A stretch of 54,347 bases of DNA from a virus (IMGVR_UViG_3300032342_001249:1-54347); one strand, 5' to 3'; shown: positions 3,888-52,620, counted from the first letter of the stretch. Notes: a model not told the origin generated them from the letters alone. A program made the numbers and translations.

Positions 3888-3906
3888 ATATCGAGGAGTT
3901 CGATAT
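3888..3906 (+). promoter_or_regulatory. Hairpin presenting the ribosome site of NadM gene
   Basis: ATATCGA (3888-3894) pairs with TCGATAT (3900-3906). The Shine-Dalgarno GGAG lies in the 5-base loop and the first two bases of the ATG (3905) are in the stem. This could tune translation of the NAD gene. Confidence 0.5.
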
Positions 3907-4927
3907 GTCAAAAATCTACGATTACGTTATTTTCATTGGACGGTTCCAACCATTCCATGCTGGCCACAAACTAGTGGTTGATACTGCTTTATCAATCGCT
4001 GATAAGGTTATTATTTGCATGGGAAGTTCTTTTTCTCCTCGTACACCTAAGAATCCCTTTACCGTTACCGAACGTGAAAGCATGTTATACGACACGTTTC
4101 CGGATCAAGTTGCAAATATTAGGGTTGCTTTCATTCGTGATCAGTTGTATAACGATCAAATGTGGGCGGCTAGTATTCAAGAAGAAGTTGATCGAATTGT
4201 TCATAGTAATGGATGGACAGACAAACCTCCCCGTGTTGCAATTATTGGTCATTCAAAAGATGACAGCAGCTATTATCTGAAAATGTTCCCACAGTGGACT
4301 CTCATTGAACACGAGATGGATGACATGGTTAATGCGACAGACATTCGTGAGTTGTATTTTGAAGGTAAGAATTTGAAGTTTTTGCAAACTATTCTGTCAG
4401 CGCCAGTGTTCCGTCGTTTGGAAGTGTTCAAAATGACGCAGGAGTATAAAACACTGGTAAAGGAACATACCATCATCAAACAGTACAAGAAACGTTGGGA
4501 AGTTGCTCCATTCCCGCCGACGTTTGTTACAGTTGATGCTGTGGTTGTTCAATCCGGGCATGTCTTAATGGTCACTCGAGATGCTGCACCAGGGGAAGGT
4601 CTGAAAGCGTTGCCTGGTGGATTCCTTGAACAAGATGAAACTTTGATCGATGGTGTTATTCGTGAACTTCGTGAAGAAACCGGTGTAAAAGTACCTGGAC
4701 CAGTGTTGAAAGGTTCTATTAAAGCATCACATGTGTTTGATGCTCCAAAGCGTTCTTTGCGTGGTCGCACAATTACTCATGCGTTCTTGATTGAACTTCC
4801 ACCTGGTACACTACCACCTGTTAAAGGTGGTGATGACGCCCGCGATGCTTTTTGGGTTCCTGTCAGTGAAATTCATAGTGATGAATGTTTTGATGATCAT
4901 TATGATATCATTCATTATTTTCTATAG
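3905..4927 (+). CDS. Bifunctional NMN adenylyltransferase / Nudix hydrolase (NadM-Nudix)
   Basis: A 340-aa two-domain protein. Residues 1-180 form a cytidylyltransferase-like NMN adenylyltransferase with IGRFQPFHAGH (nucleotide-binding HxGH) and SSFSPRTPKNPFT, the ISxxxxR-like region being less clear. Residues 200-340 carry a full Nudix box, GGFLEQDETLIDGVIRELRE followed by ETGV, fitting GX5EX7REUXEEXGU. Known two-domain relatives (Synechocystis slr0787, Francisella NadM) make NAD+ from NMN and ATP and hydrolyse ADP-ribose. Here it would work with NadV at 38828. The leader has two hairpins, one enclosing the ribosome site. The next gene follows after a 12-bp hairpin. Confident in family; in vivo direction of flux is inferred. 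Confidence 0.92.
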   Translation: MSKIYDYVIFIGRFQPFHAGHKLVVDTALSIADKVIICMGSSFSPRTPKNPFTVTERESMLYDTFPDQVANIRVAFIRDQLYNDQMWAASIQEEVDRIVHSNGWTDKPPRVAIIGHSKDDSSYYLKMFPQWTLIEHEMDDMVNATDIRELYFEGKNLKFLQTILSAPVFRRLEVFKMTQEYKTLVKEHTIIKQYKKRWEVAPFPPTFVTVDAVVVQSGHVLMVTRDAAPGEGLKALPGGFLEQDETLIDGVIRELREETGVKVPGPVLKGSIKASHVFDAPKRSLRGRTITHAFLIELPPGTLPPVKGGDDARDAFWVPVSEIHSDECFDDHYDIIHYFL

Positions 4928-4978: not shown

Positions 4979-5521
4979 ATGCAAGAAAATAAAAAACTAA
5001 CAGTTATAAATTTCTTTGGTGGTCCTTTCGTTGGCAAATCAACTATTGCTCCTTTACTCTTCGGCAAGATGAAGAAGAAAGGTTACAAAGTTGAATTTGT
5101 TCATGAATTCGCAAAAGATTGTGTGTGGGAAAGCATGTCACACATCTTTACCGAACAAGACTATATCTTTGCCCAGCAACATCGGATGATTCGTCGTCTC
5201 GTTCGTCATGATATTGATTACGCAATCGTTGATAGCTCAATTCTTCTGGGACTCTTGTATATGCCTGATTGGTTTCCTAAAACATTTGAACCATTCTTAC
5301 TTGAAGTGTTTCATTCGTACACCAACATTAATATCTTCCTAGAACGCAATCTAGCAATTCCTTATATCGAAGCCGGTCGCAATCAAACAGAAGAACAGGC
5401 AAAACAGAAAGATGTTGAATTGAAGGAATTGTTACATAAGCATTCAATTCCATATGAAAGTTTTATTGTTGATGATACGGTTGAAGATCGTATTTTAGCT
5501 CAACTTCCAAATCTATGTTGA
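4979..5521 (+). CDS. P-loop ATPase, NadR-kinase/AAA_28-like
   Basis: A 180-aa P-loop protein. Walker A is GGPFVGKST (residues 14-22); the Walker B-like strand is DYAIVDSSILLG, and a lid-type region contains RNLAIPYIEAGRNQTEEQA. The layout (VINFFGGPFVGKST, then VEFVHEFAKD, then a basic helix) resembles the ribosylnicotinamide kinase domain of NadR and the AAA_28 family of phage kinases. It directly follows the NadM-Nudix gene, so a role in NAD precursor phosphorylation is plausible, but a deoxynucleoside or other small-molecule kinase is possible. ATG follows AGGAG. Confidence 0.7.
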   Translation: MQENKKLTVINFFGGPFVGKSTIAPLLFGKMKKKGYKVEFVHEFAKDCVWESMSHIFTEQDYIFAQQHRMIRRLVRHDIDYAIVDSSILLGLLYMPDWFPKTFEPFLLEVFHSYTNINIFLERNLAIPYIEAGRNQTEEQAKQKDVELKELLHKHSIPYESFIVDDTVEDRILAQLPNLC

Positions 5522-9547: not shown

Positions 9548-9937
9548 TTGCAACGTCAGTGTATTGTATGCATGAAACAAAATGACGCAATGTACTATCA
9601 AGCGAACAAGAAAAAGTTGATTAAGCGTTACGTGCGACAACAAAAGAGTCGTGCTCAAAAATTTTACAATTTGTTTAAGCAGTATGCTTACTGTACGGTC
9701 TGTCAAGAACAAGATGTGTGTTGTTTGGACCTACATCATATTGACCCTAAACAAAAAGACTTTACAATTTCATCTGTTTTAAGAACCTATACATGGGAGC
9801 GAATTGTTGACGAAATGGAGAAATGTACCGTATTATGTCGTAATTGCCATTCAAAGGTTCATAAGTATGGTGAGGCGTTTGTCGCTCAAAAGACCCTAAA
9901 TCAAAATCTAGCAACAAAGTTTTTGAAGCTCGTATAG
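9548..9937 (+). CDS. HNH endonuclease, 5'-damaged copy
   Basis: From the TTG at 9548 this gives 129 aa with CIVCMKQ, a CxxC pair (CTVCQEQ), the LDLHHIDPKQKDF HNH core and CRNCHSKVHK. It is the same family as the genes at 14242 and 19166. Those begin with MxxxCxxCxxxK...F; here the matching frame continues upstream to about 9482 (KCKKSKIPSEFYKRTSTADG) but has no ATG, GTG or TTG in place and lacks the first Cys of the pair. The N-terminus therefore seems lost next to the divergent protease promoter. The 3' end overlaps the next tRNA by 10 bases. May be a pseudogene. Confidence 0.7.
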   Translation: MQRQCIVCMKQNDAMYYQANKKKLIKRYVRQQKSRAQKFYNLFKQYAYCTVCQEQDVCCLDLHHIDPKQKDFTISSVLRTYTWERIVDEMEKCTVLCRNCHSKVHKYGEAFVAQKTLNQNLATKFLKLV

Positions 9938-10002
9938 TTCAGAGGTAGAACGGGGAATTCTAAATTCCTGCGTCGCGGGTTCGAGTCCTGCTGCGGGCAC
10001 CA
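9928..10002 (+). tRNA. tRNA with CUA (amber) anticodon, putative suppressor
   Basis: All arms fit: acceptor GCTCGTA/TGCGGGC, D arm GTTC-AGAGGTA-GAAC, G26, anticodon stem GGGAA/TTCCT, loop TTCTAAA, T arm GCGGG-TTCGAGT-CCTGC, CCA encoded. The 7-base loop has U33 and anticodon CUA, reading UAG. An Arg(UCU) reading needs a register shift that gives an A-A mismatch and two G-U pairs and removes base 26. Amino acid identity not determined. Its U8-A9-G10 forms the stop codon of the HNH gene. Confidence 0.65.
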
Positions 10003-14684: not shown

Positions 14685-14756
14685 TGGAGAGTAGCTCAGA
14701 GAAAGAGCACCAGCAACTACGGCTGGATGTCGATGGTTTAAGTCCATCCTTTCCAA
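14685..14756 (+). tRNA. Atypical tRNA-like gene, loop AACTACG without U33
   Basis: Clean cloverleaf: acceptor TGGAGAG/CTTTCCA, D arm GCTC-AGAGAAA-GAGC, anticodon stem CCAGC/GCTGG, T arm GATGG-TTTAAGT-CCATC. But position 33 is A, the D loop lacks G18-G19, and T-loop position 56 is T instead of C. Formal anticodon CUA. CCA is not properly encoded (CAA). Paralog of 15176. Confidence 0.55.
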
Positions 14757-14761
14757 CAAAT

Positions 14762-32643: not shown

Positions 32644-32685
32644 GCCCTCGTGGTGGAATGGTAGACACGGGATATTTAGGCCACG
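32644..32685 (+). pseudogene. 5' half of a tRNA-Leu
   Basis: GCCCTCG and a Leu-type D arm (GGTGGAATGGTAGACAC), then a broken anticodon arm, directly followed by the complete tRNA-Leu(UAA). Confidence 0.55.
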
Positions 32686-32688
32686 TTT

Positions 32689-32772
32689 GCCGGAATGGCT
32701 TAGGTAAATTGGTACAGCCGCTCGACTTAAGATCGTGTGCTTTTGTGGGTTCGAATCCCTCTTCCGGCACCA
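32689..32772 (+). tRNA. tRNA-Leu(UAA)
   Basis: Acceptor GCCGGAA/TTCCGGC, loop CTTAAGA, anticodon stem CTCGA/TCGTG with one T-T, long variable arm, CCA encoded. Confidence 0.9.
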
Positions 32773-32789
32773 AAAAATGGAGAAGAAAT

Positions 32790-33107
32790 ATGTTGGATAT
32801 TACTAGAGAGAATTTGGGACAAGAAGTTTTAAGTTCCGAAATACCAGTAGTGTTAGATTTTTGGGCGGCGTGGTGTGGTCCTTGTAAGATGATGGCACCA
32901 GTGTTCGAACAGCTGGCCGAACAATTTAAAGATAAAGCAAAATTCGCCAAAGTAGATATTGATACCAACACAGACCTAGGACAAAAATTCAATGTTCGTG
33001 GCATTCCAACGTTTGCATTAATCAAAGCTGGAACAGTCATTGATGTTGTGGTTGGAGCAAGATCGCAATCACAAATGCAAGCATGGTTGGAAAAAAATCT
33101 AAGCTAA
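32790..33107 (+). CDS. trxA: Thioredoxin
   Basis: A 105-aa protein of standard thioredoxin length with the active site FWAAWCGPCKMMAP, the buried VDIDTN strand and the cis-proline GIPTF. Reduces disulfides in the cytoplasm; phage thioredoxins may support ribonucleotide reductase or DNA polymerase, but neither gene is in the window. Start chosen at ATG 32790 after GGAGAAG; upstream in-frame sequence is tRNA-Leu. Confidence 0.95.
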   Translation: MLDITRENLGQEVLSSEIPVVLDFWAAWCGPCKMMAPVFEQLAEQFKDKAKFAKVDIDTNTDLGQKFNVRGIPTFALIKAGTVIDVVVGARSQSQMQAWLEKNLS

Positions 33108-38827: not shown

Positions 38828-40213
38828 ATGAAATCGAATCTCATTCTCAATGGTATTCTCAATACCGACAGTTACAAACTTTCCCACTGGAAACAATACA
38901 AGCCGAATACAGCGACCGTTGTTTCATATATCGAATCCCGCGGTGGTTCATTCGACTATACCCAATTTTTTGGACTTCAGATTTACCTGAAAGAATATTT
39001 GTCTCAACGAATTACGCTGGAGATGATTGATCAGGCTGAAAAGATTGCACTTGCTCACGGTGAACCGTTCAATCGCGAGGGTTGGGAATACATCGTAACT
39101 ATTCACGAAGGTCGTCTACCACTTCGTGTCAAAGCAGTTCGTGAAGGTACGAATCTTCCAACCAAAAATGTTCTTGTGACAATTGAAAATACTGATCCGA
39201 AATGTTTTTGGTTGCCATCGTATGTCGAAACTGGTGCCCTACGAGCAGTATGGTATGGTACGACTGTGTCAACAATCAGCAAAAATATTAAGAAAGTTAT
39301 TGCTGAATACTTGGAAGAAACGGGTGATCCTTCTCTGATCAATTTCAAACTCCACGATTTTGGTGCACGTGGTGTTTCTTCAAAAGAAAGTGCTGGTATC
39401 GGTGGGGCAGCACACTTGGTTAATTTCATGGGTACGGATACAATTGAAGGTCTCCTGTATGCCATGGAATACTACAATACTTCTGAAGTTCCTGGTTACG
39501 GCATTCCAGCTGCCGAACACAGTACAATTACAGCATATGGTCGTGATGGTGAAGTTGACGCCTTTCGCAACATGCTTCAACAATTCGGCAAGAAAGGTGC
39601 ATTGTTTGCCGTTGTATCTGACAGCTATGACATCTACAACGCTGTTACTAATCTGTGGGGTGGAGAACTCAAACAGGAAGTAATTGACAGTGGTGCAACA
39701 TTGGTTGTTCGTCCTGACAGTGGACACCCGGCCTCGGTTGTACTCGAATGTGTGCATCGTCTTGATACAGCATTTGGTTCTGTGGTCAATGCCAAGGGTT
39801 ATCGAGTTCTCAATACTGTTCGTGTCATTCAAGGCGATGGCATCAACGAAGTGAGCATTCGTGAAATTCTGTTCACGTTGAAGATGCATGGGTATTCAGC
39901 TGACAACGTTGCGTTCGGTATGGGAGGCGCTCTCCTTCAACATATGAATCGTGACACATTGCAATTTGCTCAAAAAGCTTGTGCAATGTTGATCGACGGA
40001 AATTGGGTTGATATCTACAAGGATCCTGTTACCGATCCAGCCAAGAAGAGTAAACGTGGTCGGCTCGGATTGTACAAGAATGAGCAAGGTGAATATTACA
40101 CAGATCGTGAAGATCTGACAAAAGAAAGCCAACTTGTAACAGTTTTCGAAAATGGTACTATAACGAAGGAGTGGACGTTCGCTGAAGTACGTGAACAGGC
40201 CAACGCATCATGA
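38828..40213 (+). CDS. nadV: Nicotinamide phosphoribosyltransferase NadV (NAMPT)
   Basis: A 461-aa protein of full NAMPT length. Landmarks: DSYKLSHWKQYKP at the N-terminus, KLHDFGARGVSSKESAGIGG, PAAEHSTITAYG with the catalytic-loop His, VVSDSYDIYNAV, LVVRPDSGHP and RVIQGDGINE (phosphate and ribose binding). Makes NMN from nicotinamide and PRPP. First gene of a tightly coupled operon: its stop overlaps the PnuC ATG by 4 bases. Works with NadR and NadM-Nudix to restore NAD+. The leader has three hairpins. Confidence 0.96.
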   Translation: MKSNLILNGILNTDSYKLSHWKQYKPNTATVVSYIESRGGSFDYTQFFGLQIYLKEYLSQRITLEMIDQAEKIALAHGEPFNREGWEYIVTIHEGRLPLRVKAVREGTNLPTKNVLVTIENTDPKCFWLPSYVETGALRAVWYGTTVSTISKNIKKVIAEYLEETGDPSLINFKLHDFGARGVSSKESAGIGGAAHLVNFMGTDTIEGLLYAMEYYNTSEVPGYGIPAAEHSTITAYGRDGEVDAFRNMLQQFGKKGALFAVVSDSYDIYNAVTNLWGGELKQEVIDSGATLVVRPDSGHPASVVLECVHRLDTAFGSVVNAKGYRVLNTVRVIQGDGINEVSIREILFTLKMHGYSADNVAFGMGGALLQHMNRDTLQFAQKACAMLIDGNWVDIYKDPVTDPAKKSKRGRLGLYKNEQGEYYTDREDLTKESQLVTVFENGTITKEWTFAEVREQANAS

Positions 40214-40896
40214 AAAAGTTAGCTTATGGTATTTTCGCAGTCATTTCTCTGATGCTTTTTGCTGGGGCATATTACGAGATACTACCCACCACGATCCCTG
40301 AAGTCTTGGGGTTTGTAACAGGGGTCGTGTGTGTATGGCTCGTTGTTAAAGAGAATATGTGGAACTGGCCAATTGGAATTGCGAATAGTGCATTCTTCCT
40401 GTACACATTTTGGATAGCAAATTTGTTCGCTGACTCCATGCTACAAGTTGTTTACATTGTTCTAGGTTTTCTAGGATGGTACTGGTGGAAATTTGGGGGC
40501 GATAGTCGAAAGGAACTTACAGTTGGACGTGTGAGTTATCTCGAGATGATTTTGTTGGCAATAGCTGCTGGAATTGGTACTGTCTTCATGACACAATATC
40601 TCGAGAGTATCAAAGACGCTGCCCCATTCCTAGATGCTGTCACAACGATTTCTAGCCTCGTTGCACAATACCTTTTGTCGAGAAAGTATCTTGAGAACTG
40701 GTATGTTTGGATCGTTACTGACGTGGTGTACATCTACTTATACATCATCAAAGGACTTTACCTCACAAGTGTAACCTATATTGTGTTCTTGATTCTTTGT
40801 TTTATTGGATTAGTTGCTTGGAGGAAAACATGGAACAAACAACTGGACTCGTCATCGGCAAGTTCTATCCATTCCACCATGGCCACAAATTCCTAA
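40210..40896 (+). CDS. pnuC: Nicotinamide riboside transporter PnuC
   Basis: A 228-aa membrane protein with about seven spans. The PnuC core is visible as ENMWNWPIGIANSAFFLYTF, DSMLQVVYIVLGFLGWYWW and LENWYVWIVTDVVYIYLYII, the last resembling the NWxxWxxxDxxxxxxY substrate motif. Takes up nicotinamide riboside through the inner membrane, driven by phosphorylation by NadR. Overlaps nadV (ATGA) and contains the start of nadR (40830), so the three are co-translated. Confidence 0.95.
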   Translation: MKKLAYGIFAVISLMLFAGAYYEILPTTIPEVLGFVTGVVCVWLVVKENMWNWPIGIANSAFFLYTFWIANLFADSMLQVVYIVLGFLGWYWWKFGGDSRKELTVGRVSYLEMILLAIAAGIGTVFMTQYLESIKDAAPFLDAVTTISSLVAQYLLSRKYLENWYVWIVTDVVYIYLYIIKGLYLTSVTYIVFLILCFIGLVAWRKTWNKQLDSSSASSIHSTMATNS

Positions 40897-41801
40897 TTGA
40901 GTTTGCAAGTGGGTATGTTGATCAGGTGACGGTAATTGTTTGTTACAAACAGGCAGACATAATTCCCGCATTTCATCGAGTAGAGTGGATCAAAGAGGCG
41001 CACCCCTCTGCGATTGTTCTTAGTGTATTATGTGATCATTTAGCAGACGACGACTCAGGAGCTTGGGCGGACACTGTTCGTAATATGATTGGTGTTCCTG
41101 ATTTTGTGTTTACCTCTGAAGATTATGGCGATCCGTTTTGCGCTTTTTTAGGTTCAACACACATTCTTGTTGATAAACAAAGATTGCATGTACCAATTTC
41201 TGCAACACTCATTCGTTCAAACCCGCAAGCCCATTTTGAAAGACTTGATCCGTGCGTTCGAGCGTACTTTGCAAAACGAATTGCTTTTGTTGGGGCAGAA
41301 TCGACAGGAACTACAACACTTGCTAAAGCAGTTGCAGCAAAGTACCACACACCGTGGGTTCCTGAGTATGGCCGCTTATATGCCGAAGGGTTAGTAACAA
41401 AGGGATTGAGTTGGTTTGATGATGATTTTGTGCACATTGCTCAGACCCAAAATGCCATCGAAGATCACATGGCTCGACAGTCAAATGGATATTTGATCGT
41501 TGACACAACGTCGTTTGCTACGTCAGTGTTTCAATTGAAATATCTGGGACATGTCACACAAAAAGTTCTTGATGTTTCAAAAGATCGAAAATATGATATG
41601 TACTTTGTTACCTATCCAGATATTCCTTTTGAACAAGATGGTACGCGCGACTCTGTTGATGATAGAATGACTATGCATCAAATGTTTATTGATGCATTAG
41701 AACGAACTGGACAACGTCACATTGTCGTCAAAGGAACTCTTCAGCAGAGACTTGATGTAGTTAGTGCGTATGTTGACAAAGGGTACTATTCGAACGTATA
41801 G
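40830..41801 (+). CDS. nadR: NadR-type NMN adenylyltransferase / ribosylnicotinamide kinase
   Basis: A 323-aa two-domain protein. Residues 1-150: adenylyltransferase with GLVIGKFYPFHHGHKF (HxGH) and ISATLIRSNP (ISxTxxR). Residues 160-323: kinase with P-loop FVGAESTGTTTLAK and VDTTSFATSV. The helix-turn-helix repressor domain of enterobacterial NadR is absent. Converts nicotinamide riboside to NMN and then NAD+. ATG 40830 after TTGGAGGA lies within the 3' end of pnuC. A second adenylyltransferase gene is at 3905. Confidence 0.94.
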   Translation: MEQTTGLVIGKFYPFHHGHKFLIEFASGYVDQVTVIVCYKQADIIPAFHRVEWIKEAHPSAIVLSVLCDHLADDDSGAWADTVRNMIGVPDFVFTSEDYGDPFCAFLGSTHILVDKQRLHVPISATLIRSNPQAHFERLDPCVRAYFAKRIAFVGAESTGTTTLAKAVAAKYHTPWVPEYGRLYAEGLVTKGLSWFDDDFVHIAQTQNAIEDHMARQSNGYLIVDTTSFATSVFQLKYLGHVTQKVLDVSKDRKYDMYFVTYPDIPFEQDGTRDSVDDRMTMHQMFIDALERTGQRHIVVKGTLQQRLDVVSAYVDKGYYSNV

Positions 41802-41825
41802 TGTTTACTCTTTAGGAGTTTCAAA

Positions 41826-42041
41826 ATGTTACGATGGTTTTTGCAGAGTATGGTTTGGCTTGGTGATGTTGCTGTCATCGGAATTGCTTCGTGGTTGATT
41901 TGGTTGTATCCTACTCAACCGTTGATTTGGATCATCGTTGCTTTGTCTTTTCAAGCATGGTATAAAACGGGCGGATTTGACGGATGGAATCCGCATAAAA
42001 TTAAACAATTTATTTCTAATGCGAAGAAGGTGGGGTTATGA
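41826..42041 (+). CDS. Small two-span membrane protein
   Basis: A 71-aa protein with two hydrophobic segments (WLGDVAVIGIASWLIWLY and LIWIIVALSFQAWY) and a basic C-tail. ATG after AGGAG. ATGA overlap with the next gene; both may serve the NAD block, but this is only position. Confidence 0.65.
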   Translation: MLRWFLQSMVWLGDVAVIGIASWLIWLYPTQPLIWIIVALSFQAWYKTGGFDGWNPHKIKQFISNAKKVGL

Positions 42042-42331
42042 AAATACTCGAACAGGGTCCAGGTTGGAGCATGGAGATGATTTGTACCGGTAATGGCAAT
42101 GGAGGCGCCGGGTGCGCATCAAAGTTATTGGTTGAGGAATGTGATCTGTTCATAACAGGACATGGTTACATGGATGGCTCATTTGATCATTTTGTTACAT
42201 TTCGGTGTTGCAATTGTGGTACCGAAACGGATGTAAATGTTCCACATCGCATACGGAACGTATTGATGAAGGCACATCGCGAAAGAAATGGTGTAGCGTG
42301 GTCTCACTTAAAAAGTTTCCCGGCCAATTAA
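42038..42331 (+). CDS. Small zinc-binding phage protein
   Basis: A 97-aa protein with MICTGNGNGGAGCASKL and FRCCNCGTETDV: Cys-x7-Cys and CxxC arranged as a zinc knuckle. I recall similar small proteins in many phages; function unknown. Coupled to 41826 by ATGA, and NadK begins 1 base after its stop. Confidence 0.7.
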   Translation: MKILEQGPGWSMEMICTGNGNGGAGCASKLLVEECDLFITGHGYMDGSFDHFVTFRCCNCGTETDVNVPHRIRNVLMKAHRERNGVAWSHLKSFPAN

Positions 42332-42332
42332 T

Positions 42333-43175
42333 ATGTTTACTTCCGTATTTGCAGTACTCCATCCAACGAAGAAACCTGCACGTGTTCAAATGATGCTTGA
42401 AGCAATTCAAGCGGCGTGTCAACGTGCTCATGTTAATTTTGTTACTGAAGAAGCAGCTATCTTCAATACGACGTTAATTGTTGCAATTGGCGGCGATGGA
42501 ACAATGTTGCAAGCAATGCGAACTGCTGTTTTGCATGATGCAACTGCTGTTGGCATCAATCTTGGACGAGTTGGTTTTTTGACTGATATTAACTCCAGTC
42601 AATTTCCATCACAAGTCAATTTTGAAGACTTTTTCACAAATTTGTTGACAGGATCTAATGTGAATCAATTTGTTGAACAGCGAACAATGTTGTGGATCAT
42701 TCGTGGTGCAAAACCAAATCTTGCTGGAAATGAAGTTTCAATTTCTCGTACTGGTTCGGACAGTATGATTGAATATAGCATTTATGTTAATCGTTCTGCA
42801 GTTGGCACTCACCGCGCTAATAGTATTTTAATTTCAACAGCAACAGGCTCAACCGCGTACGCTCTATCTGCAGGTGGTGCTCTTATGCTTCCGGCGCTCG
42901 ATGCTTTTCAAATTGTCCCAGTTGCTCCTCTAACCTTAACGTCTCGCCCAATTGTTGTTCCTGGTGACAGTTTGATCACAATTGAAGCGTGGGCAAGTGG
43001 TATTTCCGTACGTGCAGATGGTAATGTTATTGAAGAAACAAACCAAACCTTTACACGAGAAAATCCCTTTAGCATCACGCTACAAGCGTTTGAACGTCGT
43101 TGTAAAGTGTTACATTTAGATGGTTGGAATTTCTTTGATATTCTTTCTGAGAAGTTAGGTTGGATCAAAGAATGA
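42333..43175 (+). CDS. nadK: NAD kinase
   Basis: A 280-aa protein with all family motifs: IVAIGGDGTML (GGDG), INLGRVGFLTD, NEVSI (the NE/D motif), ISTATGSTAYALSAGG (the Gly-rich TGSTAY loop) and PLTLTSRPIVVPG. Transfers phosphate from ATP to NAD+ to give NADP+. Finding it in a phage beside nadV-pnuC-nadR is unusual and suggests that the phage controls both NAD and NADP pools. Its stop overlaps the next ATG (ATGA). Confidence 0.95.
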   Translation: MFTSVFAVLHPTKKPARVQMMLEAIQAACQRAHVNFVTEEAAIFNTTLIVAIGGDGTMLQAMRTAVLHDATAVGINLGRVGFLTDINSSQFPSQVNFEDFFTNLLTGSNVNQFVEQRTMLWIIRGAKPNLAGNEVSISRTGSDSMIEYSIYVNRSAVGTHRANSILISTATGSTAYALSAGGALMLPALDAFQIVPVAPLTLTSRPIVVPGDSLITIEAWASGISVRADGNVIEETNQTFTRENPFSITLQAFERRCKVLHLDGWNFFDILSEKLGWIKE

Positions 43176-43870
43176 AATACCTTCTCCAACAAGAGGTTAG
43201 TTTAAAAGTTATGAAGCTAAACGAAATTAAAATTGACGTCGATGACGAAAAATCACTCGATATTGAACCTCTCAAGCATGTCAAGCCAACATACAATCAA
43301 TACCGCAAGCAATTGAACACCATGGCTGCTTGTAACATGATTAAGCAGCTTGGCGAGCCTGGAGTGTTTGGAGTTGCATATGCGTCTCCAAACGATCCAA
43401 GATTGGCTGTAAAAACGTATAAGATGAATGCTAAATATCCCGACTATCAATGGGATGCTTATACGCAGTATTTGATGCAAGTCATGAATCGAAAGCACAA
43501 TCCTTACTTTCCAAAAATCTATGATGTGCAAATTTTTGCCTGCACATCAGGTCGTGGACAACCAAAGATGTATGGTGTTGTTCATATGGAAAAATTACAT
43601 CCTCTTGGTAAAGACTATAGGAAGTTTTATCCATTTAATGATCCAGAATATGATTTATCTGATCCTGATCAATTTAACGATCCAGATCGAATGTTTTTCT
43701 TGCTTAAAATTCTTCGTGGAAAAGATCCAGCATTATACGATACGATTAACCTGATTCATCGTCTTGCAGATAATCATAGTTTCACACTCGACACACATGA
43801 AGCAAATGTTATGTGGCGTGGCACAGGATCAGATCGCCATTTAGTTTTCACAGATCCTCTCGCTTGGTAG
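43172..43870 (+). CDS. Protein-kinase-fold protein with leader-like N-terminus
   Basis: A 232-aa protein. LGEPGVFGVAYASPNDPRLA then VKTYK resembles a kinase G-loop and VAIK Lys; LDTHEANVMWRG resembles the D-x-x-x-x-N catalytic loop, and VFTDPLAW the D-x-x metal loop (TDP instead of DFG). This places it in the protein-kinase/aminoglycoside-phosphotransferase fold; activity untested. The N-terminus has MKYLLQQE and, at 43211, MKLNEIKI, both leader-like. The ATG at 43172 is coupled to nadK. Confidence 0.65.
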   Translation: MKYLLQQEVSLKVMKLNEIKIDVDDEKSLDIEPLKHVKPTYNQYRKQLNTMAACNMIKQLGEPGVFGVAYASPNDPRLAVKTYKMNAKYPDYQWDAYTQYLMQVMNRKHNPYFPKIYDVQIFACTSGRGQPKMYGVVHMEKLHPLGKDYRKFYPFNDPEYDLSDPDQFNDPDRMFFLLKILRGKDPALYDTINLIHRLADNHSFTLDTHEANVMWRGTGSDRHLVFTDPLAW

Positions 43871-43908: not shown

Positions 43909-44346
43909 ATGGACAAAATCTCAACTTTTTTTGGTGCTCATCGCTTTCTCTCGAATTTTTGGCCCGCTCAATTCGTGTGGGATAATATCGTTTGGGAATC
44001 TAGTGAACATGCTTACGTGGCTGCAAAAACTCTTGATCGAGACCTTCGTATCAAAATTTCTAAAATGGATGGTAAGGGGGAAGTTAAACGATTTGGACGT
44101 ACTATTGAACTTCGTTCCGATTGGGAACAAGTTAAAGTTGATCTAATGTACGAAATTGTTTATGCAAAGTTTTATCAAAATCCAAACTTAAAACAAAAAT
44201 TACTCAACACTGGTGATGCTATTCTTGAAGAAGGCAACACTTGGGGAGACCGTGTGTGGGGCATTAGTCCACCTGATAGCGGCAACGGTCGCAACGAACT
44301 TGGAAAAATCTTAATGCGTTTAAGAACAGTATTAGGAGGTTCATGA
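43909..44346 (+). CDS. NADAR (YbiA-like) family protein
   Basis: A 145-aa protein with the family signature FGAHRFLSNFWPAQFVWD, SSEHAYVAAKTL, an Arg-rich middle and the C-terminal GNTWGDRVWGIS plus GNGRNELGKILMRLR. NADAR proteins hydrolyse N-glycosidic bonds; members act on riboflavin intermediates or remove ADP-ribose from guanine in DNA, reversing DarT-type modification. Located in the NAD block. No strong ribosome site (ATTCTATGG). Confidence 0.9.
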   Translation: MDKISTFFGAHRFLSNFWPAQFVWDNIVWESSEHAYVAAKTLDRDLRIKISKMDGKGEVKRFGRTIELRSDWEQVKVDLMYEIVYAKFYQNPNLKQKLLNTGDAILEEGNTWGDRVWGISPPDSGNGRNELGKILMRLRTVLGGS

Positions 44347-44389: not shown

Positions 44390-44965
44390 ATGGGACTAAC
44401 ACGAAAAGCAACAAATCGAGAACTCGAAATACGAAATGAGAACAGGTATACATTACATCCACAAGAGAAAAAACGATGCACGCAGTGTGAAATTGTTTAC
44501 GACGATATTGAAACAAACTTTGATATTCATCATAAACAAATTGATGGACGTTATGGCTATAGTGGGCAATGTAAACATTGCTTACAGACAATACGAGCTG
44601 ATCGAAAAGATCGGCGGAAACGGGACGTAAAGTGGTATGGTGAATGGTTGCTAGCACACATAAGGTTTCGTGCTAAAAACTCTGATCTTGCTTTTTCACT
44701 AACGGCACAATTTTTATTTGATTTGTGGGTGGGACAAAATGGTAAGTGTTTTTATACTGGCGAAGAGATGGATTTCTTTGCTGTAACGTCCGATAAAAAA
44801 TCACCACATAAAGATTTTCCTTCGTTGGATCGAATGATTCCTAATGTTGGATATACAGAACAGAATGTTGTTTGGTGTAAGTGGGGAGTAAACAGAATGA
44901 AAAACGATTTGACAAAAGATGAGTTTGTCGCCTTTTGTCTGCAGGTGATAAAAAATGTTAAGTAA
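44390..44965 (+). CDS. HNH-type endonuclease
   Basis: A 191-aa protein. N-terminal CTQCEIVYDD and CKHCLQT zinc pair, a middle helical part, then GQNGKCFYTGEEMDF and FPSLDRMIPNVGYTEQNVVW, the layout of a divergent HNH nuclease (SLDRxxPxxGYxxxNVVWC), with MKNDLTKDEF at the end. Has its own late promoter and overlaps the next gene by 11 bases, as expected for a mobile insertion in the NAD block. Confidence 0.78.
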   Translation: MGLTRKATNRELEIRNENRYTLHPQEKKRCTQCEIVYDDIETNFDIHHKQIDGRYGYSGQCKHCLQTIRADRKDRRKRDVKWYGEWLLAHIRFRAKNSDLAFSLTAQFLFDLWVGQNGKCFYTGEEMDFFAVTSDKKSPHKDFPSLDRMIPNVGYTEQNVVWCKWGVNRMKNDLTKDEFVAFCLQVIKNVK

Positions 44966-45503
44966 AAACATATATTATTGCGGGATTGGAAGTCGCGAAA
45001 CTCCGGAAGATATTATTGTTCAAATGAAAATATTTGCTGGCGAAGCAGCATTATGTGGGGCTGTTCTTCGTTCCGGTGCTGCAGCAGGTGCCGACATGGC
45101 CTTTGAAGAAGGATGTGGCAAAGGACCAAAACAAATTTTTATTCCATGGAATGGTTTTCAAAAGAAACGTGAAGATACTCAAACATTCCTTCCGTTGGAC
45201 GAAGCCGGTGATTTGGCAGCAAAGGTTCATCCATATTATAGAACTATGCGTCGACCGAACAAATTATTAATTGCCCGTAACATGCATCAAATCATGGGAC
45301 CAGATTTAGATACCCCTACAAATTTTGTAGTATGTTGGACTAAGGATGGCTGCACGGATCATCATACCTATACTCCACAAAAAACTGGAGGGACGGGATC
45401 AGCTATTGCTCTTGCCTCAACACAAAAGATTCCTGTATTTAATTTGTTACATCCACAGCATTTGCAACAAGCATATCAACAACTTGTTGAGATTATGAAG
45501 TAA
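44955..45503 (+). CDS. SLOG-domain (DprA/LOG-like) protein
   Basis: A 182-aa Rossmann-like protein with YYCGIGSRETP, LRSGAAAGADMAFEEG (the SGG/AxGxD loop of DprA and LOG folds) and GGTGSAIALA near the C-terminus. SLOG domains bind nucleotides or NAD/ADP-ribose derivatives; phage homologs are often annotated as DNA recombination mediators. Placed between NADAR and a deoxyribosyltransferase-like gene, so a nucleotide-signal function is attractive but unproven. No strong ribosome site; the start lies inside the HNH gene. Confidence 0.8.
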   Translation: MLSKNIYYCGIGSRETPEDIIVQMKIFAGEAALCGAVLRSGAAAGADMAFEEGCGKGPKQIFIPWNGFQKKREDTQTFLPLDEAGDLAAKVHPYYRTMRRPNKLLIARNMHQIMGPDLDTPTNFVVCWTKDGCTDHHTYTPQKTGGTGSAIALASTQKIPVFNLLHPQHLQQAYQQLVEIMK

Positions 45504-52278: not shown

Positions 52279-52620
52279 ATGACACAAGTAGTGAATTTAA
52301 CCGAAGCAGCAATTTTTCACATTCAGAAAGCAATTGAGAAGCGAGGAGCAGGTATTGGCATTCGTTTTGGTATAAAAAAGGTGGGTTGCACAGGATACGC
52401 TTACGTTACTGAATACGTGGATCAACCCATTGCCCCGGCATTGGAACAAATATTTGAGGGATTTACGGTATTCATTAAACCTGAAGATGAGCGATTTGTT
52501 ACAGGATTGATGATTGATTATACACGGAAGGGATTTCAAGAAGGCTTCCAATTTAACAATCCTAATGAGAAGGCTCGATGCGGGTGCGGTTCGTCCTTTA
52601 CTATAAATACCAATGAATAA
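52279..52620 (+). CDS. A-type iron-sulfur carrier (IscA/HesB/ErpA family)
   Basis: A 113-aa protein with the three conserved cysteines: one in KKVGCTGYAY and two in ARCGCGSSF. LTEAAIFHIQKAI opens the fold. Carries iron-sulfur clusters to apoproteins in the cytoplasm. The HesB family is known in some marine phages. The role here is probably maintenance of a phage or host Fe-S enzyme; no such enzyme is in the window. Two late promoters lie at its 3' end. Confidence 0.9.
   Translation: MTQVVNLTEAAIFHIQKAIEKRGAGIGIRFGIKKVGCTGYAYVTEYVDQPIAPALEQIFEGFTVFIKPEDERFVTGLMIDYTRKGFQEGFQFNNPNEKARCGCGSSFTINTNE
52602..52609 (+). promoter_or_regulatory. T4-like late promoter TATAAATA
   Basis: Perfect TATAAATA inside the last codons of the IscA gene, 66 bases before the HNH gene. 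Confidence 0.6.

Follow-up and report, generated by a model that had tools for sequence, protein, structure and literature searches.

Positions 38828–43175 of the window, a 54,347-bp virus record from IMG/VR taken in its entirety, probably encode a phage module for the salvage and restoration of NAD(P) in which the branch leading to NADP would uphold NADP(H) when NAD is attacked. The gene identities, motifs, fold, and conserved linkage of the module are established; its unusual part is an NAD kinase (NadK). The salvage of NAD by phages is an established counter to immunity, yet NADP has not been part of this picture; a NadK that recurs beside NadV in phages opens their protection of, or need for, the NADP(H) pool to testing.

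Gene content of the block

The window is a piece of a large phage that contains approximately 30 well-scoring tRNAs and also encodes a CCA transferase. The genes for NadV, PnuC, NadR, and NadK are closely packed in the block; the gene for NatV lies apart, 34 kb from the main block, and all five are on the + strand. The nadV and pnuC genes overlap by 4 nt, the ATG of nadR (40830) is located within pnuC with a GGAGG site upstream, and the gap between nadR and nadK holds two short ORFs. On the 3′ side of NadK, the order is a distant relative of the T7 0.7 kinase family, NADAR, and, after one further ORF, a SLOG/DprA-like protein. The features are as follows:

3905–4927, +: NatV (NadM-Nudix), NMN adenylyltransferase and ADP-ribose pyrophosphatase (NF003786, PDB 2qjo)
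4979–5521, +: stand-alone AAA_28 kinase, Walker A intact, fold nearest the NadR ribosylnicotinamide kinase domain
32658–33107, +: thioredoxin (TIGR01068, above cut-off)
38828–40213, +: NadV, nicotinamide phosphoribosyltransferase (NF006629, PDB 7yqo, conserved motifs)
40210–40896, +: PnuC, nicotinamide riboside transporter (TIGR01528, PDB 4qtn)
40830–41801, +: NadR, NMN adenylyltransferase and ribosylnicotinamide kinase domains (PHROG 3462, motifs)
41826–42041, +: predicted membrane protein, 71 aa, no assigned function, in frame past the NadR TAG stop
42038–42331, +: small protein, 97 aa, no assigned function (ORF without a Pfam match)
42333–43175, +: NadK, NAD kinase (Pfam NAD_kinase and NAD_kinase_C, motifs, fold)
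43160–43870, +: distant relative of the T7 0.7 protein kinase family (PHROG 15752)
43909–44346, +: NADAR, ADP-ribose N-glycosidase-like (PF08719, 100 bits)
44955–45503, +: SLOG/DprA-like protein (PHROG 768)

The first-pass annotation described a near-complete NAD(P) module consisting of NadV, PnuC, NadR, and NAD kinase, with a NadM-Nudix protein elsewhere; matches to families and structures confirm these gene calls. NadV scores 636 bits against NF006629 (cut-off 405; E 3e-191), has the Pfam domains NAMPT_N and NAPRTase, can be aligned end to end with nicotinamide phosphoribosyltransferases of known structure (PDB 7yqo, E 5e-165), and retains the conserved sites H231, R295/D297 (RPDSG), and the GTDT motif. 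PnuC is identified by TIGR01528 (110 bits; cut-off 42) and PDB 4qtn (E 3e-15), and NatV by NF003786 (420 bits; cut-off 397) and PDB 2qjo (E 1e-98), with both its NMNAT motif and its Nudix box intact. NadR matches PHROG 3462 (E 6e-67) and scores 195 bits against TIGR01526, below the cut-off of 341; the HxGH and ISxTxxR motifs of the NMNAT domain are present (GKFYPFHHGH and ISATLIRS). As also claimed, then, two NMN adenylyltransferases with family matches and retained motifs (NatV at 3905 and NadR at 40830) are encoded by the same phage.

The kinase domain of NadR departs from the canonical sequence: its P-loop is GAESTGTTT, in which the Walker A lysine is replaced by threonine (..GGA ACT ACA ACA.., codon ACT). 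Because ACT is two base changes from a lysine codon, a single sequencing error is excluded. The lysine is kept in 63 of 64 comparison NadRs, L074 being the exception, and a pattern scan located the threonine motif in true NadRs of the L074 contig and of two additional phage lineages. In addition, a NadR beside pnuC on a plasmid of the actinobacterium Miltoncostaea oceani (L210:1347-3124) reads GAESTGTST. The recurrence in three other phage lineages and on the plasmid rules out decay as the cause of the substitution and identifies it as a conserved trait of a NadR subfamily. The pnuC-nadR pair of L210 also places this subfamily with a non-canonical P-loop in cells.

With threonine in place of the Walker A lysine, phosphorylation of the riboside by this NadR is uncertain, a correction to the first-pass proposal that NMN is made from either precursor. 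The AAA_28 protein that is encoded approximately 50 nt past NatV could possibly serve as a replacement riboside kinase; its model aligns best with NadR kinase domains (Z 15–16), with thymidylate kinases close (Z about 14). NadR-kinase-like AAA_28 proteins were seen in five contigs that contain NadK (L019, L024, L031, L042, and L066), in several of them near NadV, NatV, or NadK.

As a separate observation, tRNAs with a CTA (amber suppressor) anticodon are called at 9928–10002, also a good Rfam match, and at 14685–14757. The stop codon of nadR is TAG (41799–41801), and readthrough would produce an in-frame fusion of NadR with the 71-aa membrane ORF next to PnuC; recoding of TAG, suggested by these tRNAs, is rejected, since the standard code leaves conserved genes uninterrupted.

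A phage clade of NAD kinases

Both Pfam domains of NadK (NAD_kinase and NAD_kinase_C) score above their cut-offs, its sequence matches NAD kinases from Salmonella and Pseudomonas, and its AlphaFold model (pLDDT 95) retrieves NAD kinases throughout the best 50 PDB matches listed; its scores are below the NCBIfam equivalog cut-offs for NAD kinase, a common outcome when identity is about 30%. The fold, the intact GGDG, NE, and TGSTAY motifs, and the terminal KLGW are shared with proteobacterial NAD kinases (PDB 7qvs and 2an1).

In 50,697 phage records we obtained 32 NadK matches, among which we found one convincing phage NadK, in Sinorhizobium phage Phosso; the four others that were inspected are bacterial DNA (tlyA-nadK twice, mrcB-ppnK-yeaC, and grpE-nadK-recN). 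Scans of IMG/VR that used one NadK or NadR protein as the query gave no matches, and the IMG/VR loci were retrieved with alignment queries, which yielded 53 NadK loci. The window NadK groups exclusively with phage sequences, in a clade that has support of 100/100 (tree of 45) and an SH-aLRT of 99 (tree of 102); the nearest members of this clade are 34–51% identical. Terminase scores above the cut-off on six clade contigs, which identifies tailed phages.

In 11 of the 14 other clade loci, NadV is located ≤10 kb from NadK, so the adjacency is not due to chance; in the remaining three, NadV is at 10.2 kb, at 46 kb, or absent from one short contig. On eight clade contigs (seven distinct phages; 109–364 kb), the distance is ≤4 kb. 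Six clade loci, as well as L048 from outside the clade, have NatV ≤10 kb from NadK. The order in the window, NadV..NadK-NADAR-SLOG..CCA, is common to L014, L015, L017, and L020, and NadK-NADAR is retained in L018 and L019, so that NADAR is directly 3′ of NadK in all six; NADAR and SLOG are, that is, conserved neighbors of NadK in the relatives. The order is NatV-NadV-thioredoxin-NadK in L016 and L023, and L024 and L026 carry NadK, NatV, NadV, and SLOG. An ORF of 212 aa located about 2.45 kb upstream of NadK in L018 and L019 is a second, weak NadK match and a possible paralogue.

Outside the clade, NadV is also near NadK in L044, L048, and L049, and the L044/L049, L048, and Phosso lineages of NadK are each linked to NAD salvage genes. 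A single clade of all phage NadKs is rejected (p-AU 0.037), as is a single clade of the window clade with L048 (p-AU 0.034); monophyly of the clade with Phosso (p-AU 0.33) or with L044/L049 (p-AU 0.10) is not. Among the 80 best-matching NadV loci of IMG/VR (not a random sample), NatV is near NadV in 72 and NadK is within 10 kb in one. NadK is thus a rare addition to a common NAD module; within the clade, it usually sits beside the module. The location of PnuC-NadR between NadV and NadK is an unusual feature of the window; among its nearest relatives, a clear full NadR is missing from L014 and L020, and that of L015/L017 is >60 kb away. More generally, NadK is beside PnuC-NadR in 0 of 59 NadR loci, and elsewhere only in Phosso.

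Possible functions of the NADP branch

We infer the activities of the enzymes in the module, their expression, and their benefit to the phage. NadV would convert nicotinamide, the waste of host NADases and of NAD use by the phage, to NMN; PnuC would import nicotinamide riboside; NatV and NadR would adenylate NMN to NAD+; and NadK would phosphorylate part of the NAD+ to NADP+. The first-pass route from riboside and nicotinamide through NMN and NAD to NADP thus appears correct as judged by the gene identities. The Nudix half of NatV, NADAR, and SLOG would process ADP-ribose-type products, and the NADAR and SLOG neighbors fit such a clean-up. NADP is formed solely by NAD kinase, from NAD; a module that restores NAD but lacks NadK therefore relies on the NadK of the host.

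By homology to NARP2, the NAD branch would counter NADase immunity, and an anti-NADase role for the module is plausible. The NARP2 pathway, in which a NadV-type phosphoribosyltransferase and an NMN adenylyltransferase rebuild NAD+ from nicotinamide (Osterman et al., 2024, as cited in PMC11984713 and PMC12028318), is described in PMC11984713 as replenishing NAD+ against NADases. The window encodes both enzymes, in agreement with the first-pass assignment; their predicted restoration of NAD follows from family membership and from the NARP2 work as PMC11984713 cites it. The window adds genes predicted to serve NADP synthesis, riboside import, and the processing of ADP-ribose.

The NADP branch would keep NADP(H) available to thioredoxin and ribonucleotide reductase (RNR) while NAD is attacked. 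In addition to its position between NadV and NadK in L016 and L023, thioredoxin is ≤10 kb from NadK in others, including the window. A class I RNR is encoded by every clade contig >180 kb; none was seen in the window, a 54-kb fragment. The RNR of the long contigs and the nearby thioredoxin favor upkeep of NADP(H) for reductive biosynthesis; because jumbo phages often encode both, this evidence is weak and no more than suggestive. With that weight, supply of NADPH for dNTP synthesis fits the neighborhood at least as well as the use of NadK suggested by the first-pass annotation, the shifting of NAD into NADP, which is less attacked by some defense NADases, so that the cofactor survives Thoeris, SIR2, and DSR. 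The adjacency of NadK to NadV agrees with such hiding, as does its position beside NADAR (mostly also SLOG) in L014, L015, and L018–L020, these being proposed counters to ADP-ribose-based immunity (PMC9503650). However, the substrate preference of NADases varies, two clade members have thioredoxin and not NADAR next to NadK, and the single NadK among the 80 NadV loci implies that anti-NADase modules seldom need one; we consider hiding unlikely. That NadK was gained by chance and is unused, for which its overall rarity and the odd residue at position 163 could be cited, is very unlikely: the ORF is intact, the catalytic motifs are conserved despite the large divergence, synteny is preserved in several lineages, and the model is of high confidence.

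Residue 163 also raises the question of the acceptor. In the window NadK, residues 163 and 164 are Asn-Ser, in contrast to Asp-Gly in cellular NAD kinases. The Asp is present in 84 of 84 bacterial and 22 of 23 other viral NadKs; in the clade (n = 15), the residue is Asn in 11, Ser in three, and Asp in one, and eight have Ser as the following residue, a position held by Gly everywhere else; these counts overstate independence because they include near-duplicates (L015/L017 and L018/L019). The Asp at this position (Mtb Asp189, Lm Asp150) reaches across the dimer to contact the amide of nicotinamide and sets the orientation of the stacking Tyr (PMC8553519); every cellular NadK used has it, and it is outside the published definition of the family. 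Asn or Ser takes the place of this Asp in all but one of the 15 clade members, which might alter recognition of the nicotinamide end, such that NADH, the nicotinate dinucleotide, or an ADP-ribose derivative (e.g., an immune signal) is preferred over NAD+, and the neighboring proteins act on ADP-ribose compounds. We regard this as improbable: all 15 clade NadKs retain the catalytic motifs (GGDG, NE/D, GST, and a late Asp) and 12 the stacking Tyr, an amide could still be bound by Asn, the Arg at position 161 matches that of the NAD+-specific NadK from E. coli, and ADP-ribose is not phosphorylated by cellular NAD kinases (PMC8553519). The broader proposal, that a phage-specific clade recurrent in the NAD modules of jumbo phages uses a changed acceptor (an ADP-ribose-derived immune signal or NADH) and does not simply convert NAD+ to NADP+, is quite doubtful. 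The homology and fold of NadK hold; activity with NAD+ does not follow from either. The substituted residue is a precise point at which to probe the NADP branch, for which upkeep of NADP(H) remains our preferred function.

Relation to known systems

NadV, NatV, NadR, and PnuC are already known to occur together (PMC7139368; PMC9503650 for NadV, NadM, and NadR). The same four enzymes are found in Vibrio phage KVP40 and Ochrobactrum phage vB_OspM_OC, those of KVP40 being reported as sufficient for salvage in work cited in PMC7139368, which mentions no NAD kinase. The window differs in the altered P-loop of NadR and in the presence of NadK, with NADAR and SLOG after the block. Salvage by NadV/NadM/NadR and NADAR near NadV/NadM are both described in a survey that covered NAD-ADPr systems across 21,191 viral proteomes (PMC9503650); NAD kinase is absent from its main text. 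In the open-access literature, we located no paper on NAD kinase with either jumbo phage or bacteriophage and auxiliary metabolic gene, which does not establish priority. The new details, as read from sequence, are the replacement of Asp by Asn/Ser in the clade NadKs and a NadR kinase domain that lacks the Walker A lysine. In Phosso (a jumbo phage, 469 kb), NadK is 4.6 kb from PnuC and close to NadR; its NadK is about 24% identical to that of the window, falls outside the clade on a long branch of the best tree, and keeps the Asp, and its NadV, unlike that of the window, is far from NadK.

Two other genes of the window may be mentioned. At the left end (314–1393), a Glu/Leu/Phe/Val-type amino acid dehydrogenase is encoded that is matched in just 8 of the 50,697 phage records and for which the nearest NCBIfam model is tryptophan dehydrogenase ScyB, with a score far below the cut-off. 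An IscA/SufA-type iron-sulfur assembly protein (52279–52620) is encoded downstream of the CCA transferase, and the same order is found in L020.
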